46,756 nt of DNA from an uncultured Clostridia bacterium (GTDB taxonomy: Bacteria; Bacillota; Clostridia; Oscillospirales; SIG627): positions 1-46,756 of the forward strand of contig CAMPCJ010000006.1 in NCBI GenBank assembly GCA_946645685.1. The letters are read 5' to 3'. The position numbers were made by a program, and so were the translations under genes. Below are positions 116 to 20,502 of this stretch, piece after piece (within the stretch, counting starts at the first letter, position 1; each line of letters begins with the position of its first letter). The notes beneath the pieces were generated by a model that worked only from the letters and a program-made list of their open reading frames with translations, searched no databases and had not been told where the DNA came from.

Positions 116-2770
116 TTACGCTAAGAGATTGGGAATGAAGACCGGCACCAGCCACAGAAGCTGGTAAAGCATAACGAACATCGTATCCGCTTTGGCAAGG
201 TTGCCGGTAAGGTACAGAAAGACGAGAGAGCCGGCGCCCGCCAGAAGGGACAGGATCTTGATCACACTGTTGATCCGGACGGTATGCACCATGGAATCCG
301 ACAGGACGAAGGTTTGCAGAAGTCCCGCGATGCTGGCGGTGCAGACGACGCCGCTCTGGCTCTTTTCCAGAATGGGCGCGTCCTTCATGGCGTCCGTGGT
401 CTTAATGACCCCAGCAGGTATTTTATCACTCTTTAAAAGATTTTGCAAGAGGTTTGTGTCAATATTCGGGTCACAAGTTTTTACCGCCGGACAGATGCCC
501 GCTTTGTACAAACTGACCAGTGTTTTCTTGAAGCGGGTGCTGACCGAGTAACGAATGTAGAACTTCGCCGCCAGCTCCGTGCCGATGACCATATACATGA
601 TCTTGCCGGAGTGCTCTTCAAACTCTTCGTCCGTGTTATCCTTGGGATAGCCGAAATCGTAAGAGAGCATATAATCTTTGTTCCCCACGAAAACGTCCTG
701 GCCTTCCAGCTTGGCGCACATACCGTCCGCGGTGATCTCGCTGAAATCGAAGTCCTGGGAGATCTCGTCCACCACGCCGGAAATGGTTTTCTTGAACACC
801 ATGGAAAGGGGACCGCCCAGCTTTTCAAAGATCATGGCGGCGTACAGGATGGCTTTGTCGATCCTGGTCTGCCCGTAGGTGCGGATGGTGGTCACTTTTA
901 CATATTTGGCGGGGAAGACCTCCTTATCCGTAAAGGAAACGACGCTTGCCCGGGCGCAATCTTCCGCCTCCGCCAGACTGATGATGGCTGCGTCCTTCTT
1001 TTCCGCTTTCCGGGTGAAATGTGCCTGGGGCAGGGTCTGCGTGAAGATGCCGCACAAGGGCAGCGTCATAAACGCGGCAGTGACGAAAATGCCGACCGCG
1101 TCCGGAATGGAGCGGGTCTGCAGGTAATAATACACGCCGAACGCTGCGGAGAGAAGAAAGGACAAGGCCACCGTCCAACCGTAAATGGCTTGGGAGCGGG
1201 GCGTTTTTTGGCTGCGCTTGAAAAAGTCCTCCACAAACTCCGCCCGCTGCACGGTGTAGATCTTCTGTTCGCCGGGCAAAAGCTCCCGGAATGCTTCATT
1301 CTCGGCGCTGTCCCCCGCGACTTCCTCGCCCACGAATTTTGTGTGACGGGAGGCTGCGACGCGGAAGGAGCGGTACAGGCGCTTGTTATCCAGAAAACGG
1401 GCAATGCCGTTTAAAAGGCTGTAGAGCAAAGCGACGCTGCCGAACAGAACGTAATGATCGGTGGGGAAAATGATGTGGACGATGGGGTTGACCACCGCGA
1501 GAAGCATGACCAGGAACGTCAGGGAATCCCGGTTGGCTTTTCCGGTGAACAACCGCTTGATCCCGTCTCCCAGACTTGAGAGCTGAAACAGGGCGCTGAT
1601 GAAGATCAACTGCACGTCCAGAAGCAGATAGATCATGTCGTAAGTATCGTAGGGGCGCAGGAACTCGGGGTGATAGATGTTGGAGAAGGTAGCGCTCTCC
1701 AGGTACAGGACGATGCCGAAGAGCAGGAACAGCCACACGCAGTTCACAAGAGAACGGAAGTTTCTGTTCCGCAGATGCTCCGCGAATTCATCGTACTGCT
1801 CACGGGAAGTGTATTCCTCGGGCAAAACCTCCAGACGGGTCTTGCCGGTGTTCTCCAGCTCGTCGTAGGTATCGTTATACGGCGTGTCCGGGTCGGGCAC
1901 GTGAAATTCATCCGCCACGGCGGGGGCTCCGTTTCCATCCGCGGACGCGCCCTCGGCGTTCTCTTCTTTCGAGGCGGAGGAATACTCCCTGGTTTTTTCG
2001 TCTTCGCCTACGTGGACGGCGACGTAATCCCCGTTGTCTCCGGTGCCCACGGCGGCAAACGCCTGGGTCTCCCCGTTGTCCCCGGCGCCCACGGCGGCAA
2101 ACGCCTGGGTCTCGCCCGACTCATCGCCTTTGCCTGCTTCGGCAAGGTCTGCCTGGGCGTCTTTCGCGGAAGGGGCTTCTTCGCCCTTGTCCTTTTTCTT
2201 CTTTTTCTTTTTGGCTTTGTCGTCGTTGAACGCCTGGATCAAAAGAGAGGTGGCGTCTTCCGCCGCGCCGCCGATCGCCGCGGCGTCCACCGCCTGCCGG
2301 GACGCGCCGAAAACGGCGTCCAACTTGGCAAAGTCGATCTCGTCGTGCTTGAGAGAAAACTCTTCTCCCTCTTTTTCTTCCGTCAGCCGACGGATCAGCT
2401 CCTCGTCATAGTCCGCGTCCTTCACGGGCTCGGCCGGCTTTTCCTCCGGAGCCTGATCGGTCAGAAGATCTTCCGGGATCTCGCCGGTCTCGTCGGCGGC
2501 ACGGGCGGCAGGGGAAATGGGGGACTCCATTGCGTCCATCCCGCGCTCGGACTTTTCTTCGGGTGCGGCGCCGTCGCTTTCGGCCTCCGGCTTTTCTTCC
2601 GGGATCCGGCGGCGGGAAACTTCCGCCAAAGGCTCCACCTTGTCCTCCGCCACGGCGGCAGGGGCGGACGCGGTAGCAAGATCCAGGTCCGTCAGCAGCT
2701 CCGGATTCTTCGCGGGCGCCGGCGTTTCCTGGGTTTTGGTCTTTCGTTTGATCCTGTAAACGGATGCCAT
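116..2770 (-). CDS. Degenerate P1B-type ATPase-like membrane protein with long acidic N-terminal tail
   Basis: The 884-residue product has three parts. Residues 1-340 are acidic, low-complexity and probably disordered, with a lysine run near 186-193 and two tandem GETQAF repeats at about 215-243. Eight predicted membrane helices follow (about 342-358, 376-398, 414-435, 439-459, 530-550, 556-578, 833-855, 861-882), which is the P1B heavy-metal ATPase layout. A soluble domain at 585-830 lies between helices 6 and 8. It keeps traces of P-type motifs: D615-K616 where DKTGT should be, then E-V-F; TCD at 765-767 for TGD; D793 and D797 in a sequence ending KDAP, like GDGxNDAP; and PLC at 571-573 where CPC sits. 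TGES and the full DKTGT are absent, so ATP-driven transport is doubtful. The function is unknown. The start lies 5 bases after the rlmB stop, so the two genes are probably co-transcribed. Confidence 0.8.
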   Translation of the reverse strand: MASVYRIKRKTKTQETPAPAKNPELLTDLDLATASAPAAVAEDKVEPLAEVSRRRIPEEKPEAESDGAAPEEKSERGMDAMESPISPAARAADETGEIPEDLLTDQAPEEKPAEPVKDADYDEELIRRLTEEKEGEEFSLKHDEIDFAKLDAVFGASRQAVDAAAIGGAAEDATSLLIQAFNDDKAKKKKKKKDKGEEAPSAKDAQADLAEAGKGDESGETQAFAAVGAGDNGETQAFAAVGTGDNGDYVAVHVGEDEKTREYSSASKEENAEGASADGNGAPAVADEFHVPDPDTPYNDTYDELENTGKTRLEVLPEEYTSREQYDEFAEHLRNRNFRSLVNCVWLFLLFGIVLYLESATFSNIYHPEFLRPYDTYDMIYLLLDVQLIFISALFQLSSLGDGIKRLFTGKANRDSLTFLVMLLAVVNPIVHIIFPTDHYVLFGSVALLYSLLNGIARFLDNKRLYRSFRVAASRHTKFVGEEVAGDSAENEAFRELLPGEQKIYTVQRAEFVEDFFKRSQKTPRSQAIYGWTVALSFLLSAAFGVYYYLQTRSIPDAVGIFVTAAFMTLPLCGIFTQTLPQAHFTRKAEKKDAAIISLAEAEDCARASVVSFTDKEVFPAKYVKVTTIRTYGQTRIDKAILYAAMIFEKLGGPLSMVFKKTISGVVDEISQDFDFSEITADGMCAKLEGQDVFVGNKDYMLSYDFGYPKDNTDEEFEEHSGKIMYMVIGTELAAKFYIRYSVSTRFKKTLVSLYKAGICPAVKTCDPNIDTNLLQNLLKSDKIPAGVIKTTDAMKDAPILEKSQSGVVCTASIAGLLQTFVLSDSMVHTVRINSVIKILSLLAGAGSLVFLYLTGNLAKADTMFVMLYQLLWLVPVFIPNLLA
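2029..2112 (-). repeat. Two tandem 42-bp units inside the ATPase-like gene
   Basis: Positions 2029-2070 and 2071-2112 are two 42-base copies that differ at only two bases. They encode a 14-residue repeat containing GETQAFAAVG in the acidic tail. The unit is a multiple of three, so copy number can change without a frameshift. Confidence 0.85.
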
Positions 2771-2774
2771 CTGT

Positions 2775-3560
2775 TTACCTCTCCGATCTTTCTTTTGATC
2801 TCTGCCGCAGCACCTCGTACAAAACGACGGCGCCCGCGCAGGAAACGTTCAGGGAATTGACTCTGCCCCGCATGGGCAGGGAGATCACAAAATCGCTTTT
2901 TTCTTTCAGCAGGCGGGAAACGCCTTTTCCCTCGCTGCCTAAGATCAAGGCGCAGGGACCGTGATAATCCACCCGGTCATAAGGCTCTCCGTCCGCTTCG
3001 CAGGCGTAGATCCAAACGCCGCTATCCTTCAATTTGTCCACCGCGGACGCCAGATTGCTCACCCGGCACACCGCCACGTGTTCCGCCGCTCCGGCGGAGG
3101 ATTTCATCACGGCGCCGGACAGGGAAGCCGCTCCGATCTTGGGGATGATGATCCCGTGCGCCCCCGCCCCGTCAACGGAACGGATCAGAGCGCCCAGATT
3201 GTGGGGATCCTCCACGCCGTCCGCAATGAGGAAGAAGGGGTCTTCCCCCCGTTCCCGGGCGACGGCGAAGAGATCGGAAAGCGTGGCGTATTCTTTGCCG
3301 GTGGCGACGGCGGCAACGCCCTGATGGCGCGCTCCTCCCGTCATGCGATCCAGCTTTTCCCGGTCGCAAAAGCCCACGGGAATGCCCCTCTCCCGGGCGA
3401 CGGCGCAGATCTTTTTCAAACTGCCGTCCCCGTCCCGGAGCAGGTGGATCTTGTCCACGCTCCTGCCGGCGGCAAGGAGCTCCAGAACGGCGTTGCGCCC
3501 GTAGATCAGATCCGTTTCCTCCCGCGGCGCAGGATCAAGTCTCGTTCTTTCTCGCTTCAT
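2775..3560 (-). CDS. rlmB: 23S rRNA 2'-O-methyltransferase, RlmB/TrmH family
   Basis: A SpoU/TrmH enzyme that transfers a methyl group from S-adenosylmethionine to a ribose 2'-OH; RlmB acts on G2251 of 23S rRNA. An N-terminal RNA-substrate domain (YGRNAVLELL near the start) precedes the knotted SPOUT domain. The three family motifs are visible: DGVEDPHNLGALIRS, ILGSEGKGVSRL and ISLPMRGRVNSLNVS. I chose the ATG at 3560 (261 residues) over the in-frame ATG at 3578, because AGGA lies 8 bases before it and the likely promoter -10 box (3589-3594) would leave almost no leader for the upstream ATG. It is divergent from a second TrmH-family gene at 3784. RlmB is the best call, but TrmH subfamily specificity is not certain from motifs alone. 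Confidence 0.9.
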   Translation of the reverse strand: MKRERTRLDPAPREETDLIYGRNAVLELLAAGRSVDKIHLLRDGDGSLKKICAVARERGIPVGFCDREKLDRMTGGARHQGVAAVATGKEYATLSDLFAVARERGEDPFFLIADGVEDPHNLGALIRSVDGAGAHGIIIPKIGAASLSGAVMKSSAGAAEHVAVCRVSNLASAVDKLKDSGVWIYACEADGEPYDRVDYHGPCALILGSEGKGVSRLLKEKSDFVISLPMRGRVNSLNVSCAGAVVLYEVLRQRSKERSER

Positions 3561-3588
3561 ATGCTTTTCCTGTCTCATAATTAAAATC

Positions 3589-3783: not shown

Positions 3784-4566
3784 ATGGATTGGCTCTATCT
3801 CACCAGCCGCCAAAACGGTACGGTCAAAAGCGTATGTTCTTTGCGGGATAAAAAGTATCGTGATGAAATGGGCCTTTTCCCGGTGGAGGGGATCAAGTTC
3901 CTTTCCGATCTGGCAAAGGACGGGATCGTGCCTGCCGCTCTCTTTCTGTCCGAAGACAGCCGCCTGGATCGGGCGCGCGCCGAGGAAATGGCGGGGGAGA
4001 AGACCCGGCTTTATCTGGTCACGCCATCCGTGTATGAAAAGATTTCCGAAGAGCAGGCGGGGGAAGGGGTTTTGGCGCTTTATGAAAAAAGCAGCCTGCC
4101 TGCGCCTCGCGGCGGGGAAAAGCGCGTCATAGCGCTGGAAGGTGTGCAGGATCCCGGCAACGTGGGCGCCTGCGTTCGTTCCGCCGCCGCGCTCGGCTTT
4201 GACGCGGTCTGGGTCGCCCGCTGCGCCGACGTACTCGGCTCCAAAGCGCTGCGCTCTTCCATGGGCGCTTTGTTTCGCATTCCCGTGGTGATTTTTCCCG
4301 ACGGGAAAGCGCTCTTGTCCGCCGCCCGGGAGAAAAATCTTCTTTCCGTTGCAGCGTGCCTTTCCGGGGACGCTGTTTCTCTCTCCCGTGTGGATCTGCG
4401 CCGTCCGGTCTGTTTGTTCATCGGCAGTGAGGGGCAGGGGCTGACGGAGGAAGTCGCTCGGGGCGCCGACGTGCGCGCCGTCATTCCCATGCGTGGCATG
4501 GAAAGCGTGAACGCCGCCGCCGCTGCCGCCATTTTTATGTGGGAGGCTGTCCGGGATGAAGCGTAA
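3784..4566 (+). CDS. TrmH-family (SpoU) RNA 2'-O-methyltransferase
   Basis: A second SPOUT methyltransferase of 260 residues. The N-terminal part (1-105) resembles the substrate-binding domain of SpoU enzymes, with LTSRQNGTVKSVCSL and the VEGIKFL segment. The catalytic domain has motif 1 as VQDPGNVGACVRSA (121-134), motif 2 as IGSEGQGL (213-220) and motif 3 as IPMRGMESVNAAAA (234-247). It probably uses S-adenosylmethionine to methylate a ribose in rRNA or tRNA; the target base cannot be read from the sequence. AAGGAGG lies 11 bases before the ATG. The gene overlaps dprA by 11 bases. It resembles the YsgA/TsnR-like group rather than RlmB. Confidence 0.88.
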   Translation: MDWLYLTSRQNGTVKSVCSLRDKKYRDEMGLFPVEGIKFLSDLAKDGIVPAALFLSEDSRLDRARAEEMAGEKTRLYLVTPSVYEKISEEQAGEGVLALYEKSSLPAPRGGEKRVIALEGVQDPGNVGACVRSAAALGFDAVWVARCADVLGSKALRSSMGALFRIPVVIFPDGKALLSAAREKNLLSVAACLSGDAVSLSRVDLRRPVCLFIGSEGQGLTEEVARGADVRAVIPMRGMESVNAAAAAAIFMWEAVRDEA

Positions 4567-18514: not shown

Positions 18515-19789
18515 TTAGGCGCCGGCAAGGGAGCGGGCGGCTTGACGCAATTCCGCGTAGGAGTACAGACTGCCAACGCACAACACAACGCCGCCGTTTT
18601 CCGCCGCGTCCCGGGCGGCGCTTTCCAGCGCCTTTGTCATACTGTCGCAGGGGACGGCGTGTACGCCTGCCTGCTCCAGCGCCCGCGCCAGCTCAAGCGC
18701 CGGCAGGGAGCGGGGCGTTTCCGGCGCGCCTACGTAGGCTTTGCCGGAAATGCCGGCGAGTGTTTTCACCATGGTGTCAAAGCTCTTGTCCTTCATCACG
18801 CCGGAAACCAGAATGATCCGTTCGTCGGGATAGAGCGCCCGGCAGGTGGCAACGGCGCCTTCGATGCCGTCCGGATTGTGGGCGCCGTCAAAAATGATCC
18901 TGGGCTCCTTGAGAAGCGTTTCAAAGCGCCCGGGCCAGTACACGGAGGAAAAGCCCTTTTGAAGCGCCTCGTCGGGGATGGCAAAGCCCTGCTTTTTCAG
19001 TTCCTCCGTCACGGCAAGAACGGTCTTGATGTTCTTTTCCTGGTACACGCCGGACAGGGGTGTGAAGAGGGACAGAGAGTGGTACCGGAAGGAAATGCCC
19101 TCCCGGGTGTGGGCAACGTCGGACAAAACAAGATCCGCCGCTTGGATCAAAGGCAGCCCCTTTTCCCGGCATTTGTCCAGAATGACTTTCTCCGCGCCTG
19201 CGGGGGCGTGACCCAGCACGCAGGGCGCTCCCTTGAGAATGCCCGCTTTTTCCCCGGCGATCTTTTCCACCGTGTCTCCCAACACGTCCGTGTGGTCCAG
19301 AGCGATGTTGGTAATGACGGACAAAAGGCTTTCGTCGATCACGTTGGTCGCGTCCAGCCGTCCCCCCAGTCCGCATTCCAAAACGATCACGTCCGGTTTC
19401 ACTTCGCTGTAATACTGAAAGGCGATGGCGGTGATCAATTCAAATTCCGTGGGACCGTCCTCCATGAGATCCGCCTTTGCCTTGACCGCTTCCGTGACCC
19501 GGCACAGATCCTCGTGGGAAATGGGGCTTCCGTCAAATTGGATCCGTTCCGTAAAGTCCACCAGATACGGGGACGTGTAAAGACCGACCTTCAACCCCGC
19601 TGCCCGGAGAATGGAATCCGTCATGGCGGAAACGGATCCTTTGCCGTTGGTACCCGCTACGTGGATGAAATGCAGTTTCTTTTGAGGGTTGCCCAATAGA
19701 TCGCACAATACGCGTATACGTTCCAGCCCGGGCTTTCTGCCCCGCCAGGAAACGGAATGGATGTAAGTGAGGGCTTCTTCGTAAGTCAT
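18515..19789 (-). CDS. folC: Folylpolyglutamate synthase / dihydrofolate synthase
   Basis: FolC adds glutamate to folates, and in bifunctional forms also joins dihydropteroate with glutamate. It keeps imported or newly made folate in the cell. The 424-residue product has the Mur-ligase ATP loop HVAGTNGKGSVSAM (GTNGKGS at 46-52), LECGLGGRLDATNV and NIALDHTDVLGDT, with the C-terminal ligase domain holding DGAHNPDG. Its start overlaps the folT stop by 4 bases. The pairing with a riboswitch-controlled folate transporter subunit suggests a salvage role. Whether it also has dihydrofolate synthase activity cannot be told from these motifs. Confidence 0.95.
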   Translation of the reverse strand: MTYEEALTYIHSVSWRGRKPGLERIRVLCDLLGNPQKKLHFIHVAGTNGKGSVSAMTDSILRAAGLKVGLYTSPYLVDFTERIQFDGSPISHEDLCRVTEAVKAKADLMEDGPTEFELITAIAFQYYSEVKPDVIVLECGLGGRLDATNVIDESLLSVITNIALDHTDVLGDTVEKIAGEKAGILKGAPCVLGHAPAGAEKVILDKCREKGLPLIQAADLVLSDVAHTREGISFRYHSLSLFTPLSGVYQEKNIKTVLAVTEELKKQGFAIPDEALQKGFSSVYWPGRFETLLKEPRIIFDGAHNPDGIEGAVATCRALYPDERIILVSGVMKDKSFDTMVKTLAGISGKAYVGAPETPRSLPALELARALEQAGVHAVPCDSMTKALESAARDAAENGGVVLCVGSLYSYAELRQAARSLAGA

Positions 19790-20316
19790 AGCTTGCCTCC
19801 TGCGTCGTCAATGCCGAAAATCTTTCTGATCGCGTGATGTTTCATCAGGAGCGCGCACAGATACGCCTCCAGAGGAATGATGGGTAAATAGGTAAGGCAG
19901 CGCCATCCGAAGAGGGACAACAGCGGCGTTCCGTAGGTGAAGTGCAGGATCAAGGTTTTAAACCCGATGGAAAGGAGCAGGTGGGTGATGGTGATGGAGA
20001 GCACGATGGAAGACGTCTTCCTGTTTCGGAAAACGAAGCGTACCAAGAGACCCGGCAGCAAGCCCATGAACGCCTGCGCCACCGTCATCAGGGGGATGAC
20101 GGCGTATCCGCGCAGAGCGCAGCCCACCAGATCCGCCACGATCCCGGTCGCCATTCCCCACAGCGGTCCCAGAAAGACCGACGCAAGGAACAGGGGCAGG
20201 TTTTCAAAGCTGATGCGTATGTCCGATCCGATGGAAACGGCAAGAAACTTTCCCAACAGGATAGACAGCGCCGCCAGAAGCGCGGCAAAGACGAGAAACG
20301 TAAGGTTTTTGCGCAT
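19786..20316 (-). CDS. folT: Folate ECF transporter substrate-binding subunit FolT
   Basis: FolT is the membrane S component that binds folate and works with a shared ECF energising module; the module genes are not in this window. The 176-residue product has about six hydrophobic helices, including an N-terminal FLVFAALLAALSILL and SFENLPLFLASVFLGPLWG, the typical S-component segment for the folate and related families. It is preceded by a tetrahydrofolate riboswitch and followed by folC with a 4-base overlap. These two neighbours fix the substrate better than the protein alone. AAGGAGG lies 7 bases before the ATG and is inside a 13-bp hairpin. Confidence 0.93.
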   Translation of the reverse strand: MRKNLTFLVFAALLAALSILLGKFLAVSIGSDIRISFENLPLFLASVFLGPLWGMATGIVADLVGCALRGYAVIPLMTVAQAFMGLLPGLLVRFVFRNRKTSSIVLSITITHLLLSIGFKTLILHFTYGTPLLSLFGWRCLTYLPIIPLEAYLCALLMKHHAIRKIFGIDDAGGKL

Positions 20317-20322
20317 AAAAAC

Positions 20323-20392
20323 ACCTCCTTTTCCGCTGAATTGCCCGTGTGCGGGCTCCGGAAAAGGAGGTAAAAGAAGGGACCTTTTTCGG
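20323..20392 (-). promoter_or_regulatory. folT riboswitch expression platform (Shine-Dalgarno-masking hairpin and alternative)
   Basis: On the minus strand ACCTCCTTTTCCG (20371-20359) pairs perfectly over 13 bp with CGGAAAAGGAGGT (20335-20323), which contains the folT Shine-Dalgarno site. A 5-bp GCCCG/CGGGC hairpin sits in its loop. Just after the aptamer, CCGAAAAAGG (20392-20383) can instead pair 9 of 10 bases with CCTTTTCCGG (20367-20358). The two pairings exclude each other, as expected for a translational switch. Confidence 0.8.
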
Positions 20393-20492
20393 ACAGCGGG
20401 ATGCGGATCTCAAACCGCAAGCAAAAAGCCTTTCGTCCCCGGAGCAACTCCCCGTCTCCAAGGGGCACTTAACGCTTGAGATCCTACTCTGT
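20393..20492 (-). ncRNA. Tetrahydrofolate (THF) riboswitch aptamer
   Basis: On the minus strand this segment follows the folT-type THF riboswitch core. It has AGAGTAGG, then a P2 strand GATCTCAA, then GCGTTAAGTG, a GC-rich hairpin ending GGGGACGAA, GCTTGCGG, the P2 partner TTTGAGATC, and CGCATCCCGCTGT. P1 is the short pair ACAG/CTGT. P2 is GATCTCAA with TTTGAGATC. The class binds reduced folates and controls folate transport or synthesis genes in Firmicutes. It lies directly before folT and starts 11 bases after the tadA stop. Confidence 0.92.
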
Positions 20493-20502
20493 TTTGTAAG
20501 CG

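Follow-up and report, generated by a model that had tools for sequence, protein, structure and literature searches.

The window, as we call the whole 46,756-nucleotide stretch of Clostridia DNA analysed here, begins with an open reading frame on the minus strand (116..2770) for which an initial annotation, made from the sequence, had proposed descent from a heavy-metal P-type ATPase that no longer pumps. The frame was confirmed and encodes 884 residues. It raises the question of whether this protein is one odd or decaying copy of a pump, or represents a family that has kept the pump fold for another role. On its own, the window protein gave no Pfam match, no NCBIfam match above chance and no solved structure (phmmer), and the proposed metal-ATPase origin was therefore tested through its relatives.

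An order-wide family

Using residues 336-884 as a single-sequence query, homologues were found in 20 of the 22 genomes of the window's own family and in 182 of the 197 genomes of its order, drawn from 26 families. Four of the 15 remaining genomes (G036, G121, G163, G183) were shown by profile search to encode full-length members scoring 290-362 bits, bringing the total to at least 186/197; in another of the 15 (G047), an N-terminus linked to rlmB lies at the end of a contig. Genomes essentially carry a single copy each, with additional matches in some. The finding thus concerns a whole order-wide family, not a single odd protein.

To define the limits of the family, a profile of 57 family cores (A1) was run against two class-wide samples. 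All order genomes in them were positive (12/12 and 7/7), and none of the other genomes of the class gave a full-length match (0/279 and 0/189). The A1 scores were bimodal: members scored at least 271 bits over their full length, while outsiders scored at most 132 bits over approximately profile positions 182-483. DKTGT is present in all 23 outsider loci retrieved, and on these grounds the weaker matches elsewhere in the class were rejected as relatives.

The membrane half has the fold of a copper pump

AlphaFold prediction on A1 gave a confident model (mean pLDDT 92.6, pTM 0.87), and the top PDB matches by Foldseek were copper P1B ATPases (4bbj, E 1.6e-15). Structural alignment with LpCopA (3rfu) by VIA-align gave a Z score of 23.1 over 477 residues with a large rmsd (8.3), as multi-domain pumps in different states would give; zinc and cadmium pumps scored 16-18 and other P-type ATPases at most about 14. 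Sequence profiles agreed with the model. The A1 profile found LpCopA at E 6.1e-34 (HMMER), and hhalign of the family against an alignment of 26 true P1B ATPases of these bacteria (A2) gave a probability of 99.9% and an E value of 1.6e-35 over 526 columns. Hydropathy and the model both place eight membrane helices in the window protein in the 4+2+2 order of P1B ATPases, as the initial annotation had proposed. We assign the modelled membrane half (residues 336-884, 119..1765, minus strand as for all features of this gene), comprising these helices and a soluble P/N domain, to the P1B (copper) ATPase fold, and its descent from a heavy-metal P-type ATPase is borne out by the fold, the LpCopA match and the hhalign comparison.

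The P1B-1 copper exporters (CopA; LpCopA 3rfu/4bbj, AfCopA) are the best structural and profile match of the family. They have in common with it the eight-helix 4+2+2 membrane part, the P and N domains, the helix MB glycine, the M4 proline, the Asp of TGD and the N-domain vGn glycine. In contrast to them, the window family lacks DKTGT, TGE, GDGxND, HP and CPC, has an A domain of only ~50 residues, carries a long acidic N-terminal region in place of metal-binding domains and is always encoded behind rlmB. The P1B-2 zinc and cadmium ATPases (ZntA, CadA) have fold and profile family in common with it and match more weakly than the copper group; the differences are the same. Among the database models, NCBIfam ATPase-IB_hvy (TIGR01525) matched 41/57 members (best 1.3e-14) and the Zn/Cd-pump models matched 15-17/57. 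Weak matches of this kind label most members "heavy metal ATPase", a name that would be wrong if transferred to annotations.

The catalytic motifs are lost throughout the family

To locate the phosphorylation site, the window protein was placed on LpCopA by HMMER and on the 26 true P1B ATPases by hhalign. In both profile alignments, the P1B segment VVFDKTGTLTEGKPEVTDI aligned without gaps on VVSFTDKEVFPAKYVKVTTI, so that in the window protein the phospho-Asp of DKTGT falls on T614, with D615 at the Lys and K616 at the Thr position (TDKEV, residues 614-618, 917..931). Column 614 is D in 13/57, T in 12/57 and A in 9/57 members. The members with Asp at this column are distant ones (for example VMVDAKDLFPKG and VVIDSNYLFPKG), and since their glycine falls in line with that of DKTGTLTEG, they support the register. 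The reading of D615-K616 as the DK of DKTGT is thus off by one and is ruled out, while the loss of the residues after the phosphorylation site was correctly noted, KTGT being gone altogether. Column 615 is D in 50/57, column 617 is D or E in 52/57 and column 619 is F or Y in 56/57 members, and from these columns D615-x-[DE]617-[VIL]-[FY]619 is recognized as a new conserved family signature; K616 is poorly conserved (K in 8/57).

The conservation of D615, and the lysine that follows it in the window protein, could alternatively indicate a genuine P1B ATPase whose unusual catalytic site the alignments misplace, with D615 as the phosphorylated residue. This is very improbable, as both profile alignments give T614 without a gap, the lysine is rare at column 616, Asp is missing from column 615 in members such as L053, L071 and L072, and TGE, GDGxND and an A domain of normal size are all missing.

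At the TGD position the window protein has TCDPN (residues 765-769, 464..478). As the initial annotation had seen, TCD stands for TGD: its Asp, D767, is kept in 56/57 members and is followed by x-N (N769, 52/57), while the glycine is not kept. The segment DAMKDAP (residues 793-799, 374..394), by contrast with what had been proposed, does not supply the hinge aspartates. In the hhalign alignment, D793 and D797 lie within an "LPEDK" segment and there is a deletion over GDGINDAPAL; the two columns are D in only 7/57 and 6/57 members, and the resemblance to GDGxNDAP is a chance one, limited to close relatives.

The remaining motifs were compared in the same way. The A domain is reduced to a remnant (residues 473-524, 1199..1354) of ~50 residues versus ~120 in LpCopA, whose residues 217-336 face profile positions 139-192 (HMMER); the remnant lacks TGE and retains strands at 478-483 and 504-513 in the model. 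PLC (residues 571-573, 1052..1060) occupies the CPC position of M4, where the proline is kept in 49/57 members, the cysteine pair is lost and the model breaks the helix. No other recurrent metal ligand replacing CPC in M4 was found across the family columns. In the N domain, GGP (residues 652-654, 809..817) stands at the EHP position, the His being replaced by Gly (G653; G in 40/57), and the Glu matching AfCopA E457 is replaced by F648 (F in 34/57). G683 (56/57) and G696 (57/57) are kept; of GxG, only the second glycine is kept, the first being variable. The last helix contains a YQLxW...P motif with W873 in 57/57 members.

Across 62 members, DKTG, TGE, GDGxND or CPC was in place at the aligned positions in none, in agreement with the loss of TGES and the change of CPC to PLC first noticed in the window protein. 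The only DKTG string (in L053) and the only TGEA string (in L011) among these members fall at other positions. Homologues with DKTGT and TGES intact, which the initial annotation had named as a sign of sequencing error, thus did not turn up among the 62. As judged from the alignments, the family as a whole has lost the motifs for phosphorylation, the phosphatase step, Mg coordination and metal coordination, so that a pump cycle by the known mechanism would not be expected.

Nucleotide binding by the window protein is also unlikely, because the residues that contact ATP are replaced as well. The initial annotation had argued for nucleotide or Mg binding from a kept Asp, Lys and pair of hinge aspartates; this argument is largely undercut, since the Asp-Lys pair is a coincidence of register, the hinge aspartates are the wrong ones and the Glu and His are Phe and Gly in most members. 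Some ligand binding may nevertheless occur, as the N-domain fold is largely retained, together with D767, G683 and G696. The main alternative is a nucleotide or divalent-cation sensor, whose N domain would bind nucleotide, or whose D615 and D/E617 would bind a cation together with D767 and N769, shifting the membrane part. These four residues are among the best conserved of the family and align with the Mg- and phosphate-holding positions of P-type ATPases, and the two N-domain glycines are nearly invariant; however, the residues that hold adenosine are Phe and Gly in most members, the first GxG glycine varies and the Mg-holding Asp of GDGxND is deleted. We regard a sensor as unlikely, and prefer a membrane scaffold or regulator that does not pump.

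The family is maintained by selection

In a quick tree built with the 26 true P1B ATPases, a branch of length 1.78 (support 100) separates the family from them. Pairwise comparison of the window gene with four same-genus relatives gave dN/dS of 0.09-0.23, with dS partly saturated. Member open frames span 540-1170 residues, and protein identities within the family reach down to about 15%. The family is an order-wide pseudoenzyme of single origin that has kept the fold, lost the active site and stayed under purifying selection.

Two broken copies were observed. In the closest relative (G004; L002:1498-3147, L021; 85% identical), a TGA codon lies in frame close to where the first membrane helix begins; it could be a sequencing error, a nonsense mutation or recoding. 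A distant member (L052:4164-6560) is divided by a stop into two open frames; no other distant member read is clearly broken. Together with the lost catalytic motifs, these copies could be taken to mean that the gene has no maintained function, being either a pump in decay or a product of faulty metagenome assembly. For the family this explanation is refuted, and its probability practically negligible, given the presence in at least 186/197 order genomes as one clade of open frames, dN/dS well below one and the fixed position behind rlmB. The same order-wide presence and purifying selection rule out a sequencing error or pseudogene, and the initial view that the protein is maintained rather than freely decaying holds. 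An anti-phage defence system was also considered and rejected, as none of the 57 members matched a PADLOC defence model.

An acidic N-terminal region with recurrent short motifs

Residues 1-335 of the window protein (1766..2770) form an acidic, low-complexity region with 82 D/E and 40 K/R. It contains a 42-bp tandem repeat of 2.1 copies (2028..2118, Tandem Repeats Finder) encoding GETQAFAAVGAGDN / GETQAFAAVGTGDN. The initial annotation had described an acidic, repeat-bearing tail; the composition and repeat stand, but the region is N-terminal and not C-terminal, and by P1B topology it would therefore be cytosolic. It had also been called atypical of the family, which is true relative to P1B ATPases and untrue of the pseudo-ATPases, nearly all of which have a similar, mostly acidic region of about 80-600 residues.

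Two short motifs recur in these regions. The first, [FY]S[LIV][DE][DE]ILxE, lies at the start of the region in many families (12/56 tails, none in 300 shuffles) and is missing from the window's own family (f1). The second, [DESN]Tx[AVIL]F, occurs in 13/56 tails against 1.9 expected and a maximum of 8 in 300 shuffles, and is present twice in the window protein, inside the 42-bp repeat; for both motifs, the shuffles ignore the relatedness of members. The second motif recalls the phosphothreonine sites of the GarA/OdhI type that are read by FHA domains. A literature search on the ETTSVF motif gave nothing useful, and a Clostridioides difficile phosphoproteome paper (PMC9674922) yielded no matching threonine motif.

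When the 197 genomes were searched with a DNA pattern for the [FY]S motif, the matches were mostly N-termini of the pseudo-ATPase family. Two other membrane proteins, each in one genome, also carry it: an ABC-2 permease that has a long disordered head, with the motif at its very N-terminal end (L155, G124:C1 about 2266695), and a lipoprotein signal peptidase that has a long disordered tail, with the motif at its very C-terminal end (L179, G115:C5 about 91318). Chance-like matches were seen in EF-Ts (internal) and MurC. The occurrence in the permease and the peptidase is no more than a lead.

The gene is fixed behind rlmB

The gene directly upstream of the window pseudo-ATPase, ending 4 bases before its start codon, is rlmB (2775..3578, minus strand), encoding a 23S rRNA 2'-O-methyltransferase with Pfam SpoU_methylase and SpoU_sub_bind domains. 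This adjacency is conserved: rlmB was found directly upstream on the same strand in 40/40 loci, which cover almost every family of the order, with a median gap of 20 bases and 35/39 gaps of at most 100, start codons being assigned mechanically. The remaining neighbours are shuffled between genomes, which rules out a conserved operon beyond rlmB. Outside the order, none of 28 class loci had a pseudo-ATPase relative downstream of rlmB; the genes found there are various, several sigma-H-like, and unrelated. A literature search on rlmB together with a P-type ATPase gave nothing useful.

The persistence of the pair amid shuffled surroundings, between proteins as little as ~15% identical, argues for shared expression or shared function, either one, and it may be expression only. 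The two genes are probably co-transcribed.

The linkage also bears on the alternative of an ATP-independent channel or facilitator, or of a partner to a genuine P1B ATPase in the same cell. All eight helices, the M4 proline break and the conserved motif of the last helix are kept, and the window genome also encodes two full P1B ATPases. On the other side, CPC is gone in every member and has no recurrent substitute in M4, and the gene is linked in all 40 loci to rlmB and not to a metal gene; we know of no P1B ATPase that needs a pseudo-subunit. A transport role is accordingly considered quite improbable.

Two further features of the window were noted. A second SpoU-type rRNA methylase gene (3784-4566, plus strand) is divergent from rlmB and heads a dprA-topA-plsX run; its pairing with rlmB is seen only in some genomes of the window's family. 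A tetrahydrofolate riboswitch (20392-20493, minus strand) lies upstream of a gene for a FolT-like small membrane protein (19786-20316), followed by a folC-like gene, an ordinary arrangement.

A proposed role as a membrane scaffold or regulator

The pseudo-ATPase is probably a non-pumping membrane scaffold or regulator. The initial annotation had suggested that it may sense or scaffold, which is a reasonable guess. We propose an ancient pseudoenzyme that would have arisen once from a P1B heavy-metal ATPase and become fixed in one Clostridia order. It would neither pump nor hydrolyse ATP and would reside in the membrane, where the P/N domain, with a retained TGD aspartate and a re-modelled loop (D-x-[DE]-[VIL]-[FY]-P), would offer a surface for binding. 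The N-terminal region, long and acidic, would extend into the cytosol and recruit partners through short motifs, [FY]S[LIV][DE][DE]ILxE in many families and the phosphothreonine-like [DESN]Tx[AVIL]F in others. Because the gene is probably co-transcribed with rlmB, its role would most likely be tied to the state of translation or ribosome assembly in growing cells, or it would simply need the same housekeeping expression.

A more specific and bolder version, which we consider distinctly unlikely, is a membrane adaptor invented once in the order's ancestor by gutting a copper pump, which would recruit cytosolic partners via phospho-regulated threonines and a short motif that it has in common with other membrane proteins (the ABC-2 permease and the lipoprotein signal peptidase of single genomes), and would connect the cell envelope with RlmB or the ribosome.

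Pseudoenzymes of kinases and proteases are well known. Like pseudoenzymes in general (e.g. pseudokinases), the present family has kept the fold, lost the catalytic residues and been conserved for another role. No P-type ATPase pseudoenzyme family was found described in the literature searched, and for the terms searched, a 2023 review of open questions on P-type ATPases (PMC10654040) made no mention of one. Pfam has no model for the family, although almost all genomes of a large order carry it and its position next to a gene for rRNA modification is fixed. This makes it a clear target: the protein may be a regulator, new in kind, of translation or the envelope in these bacteria, or it may put the pump fold to a new use.

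The acidic region is absent from the members of family f10 (L042, L075; 544-548 residues). These proteins are a natural deletion of the region and could show which role needs it.
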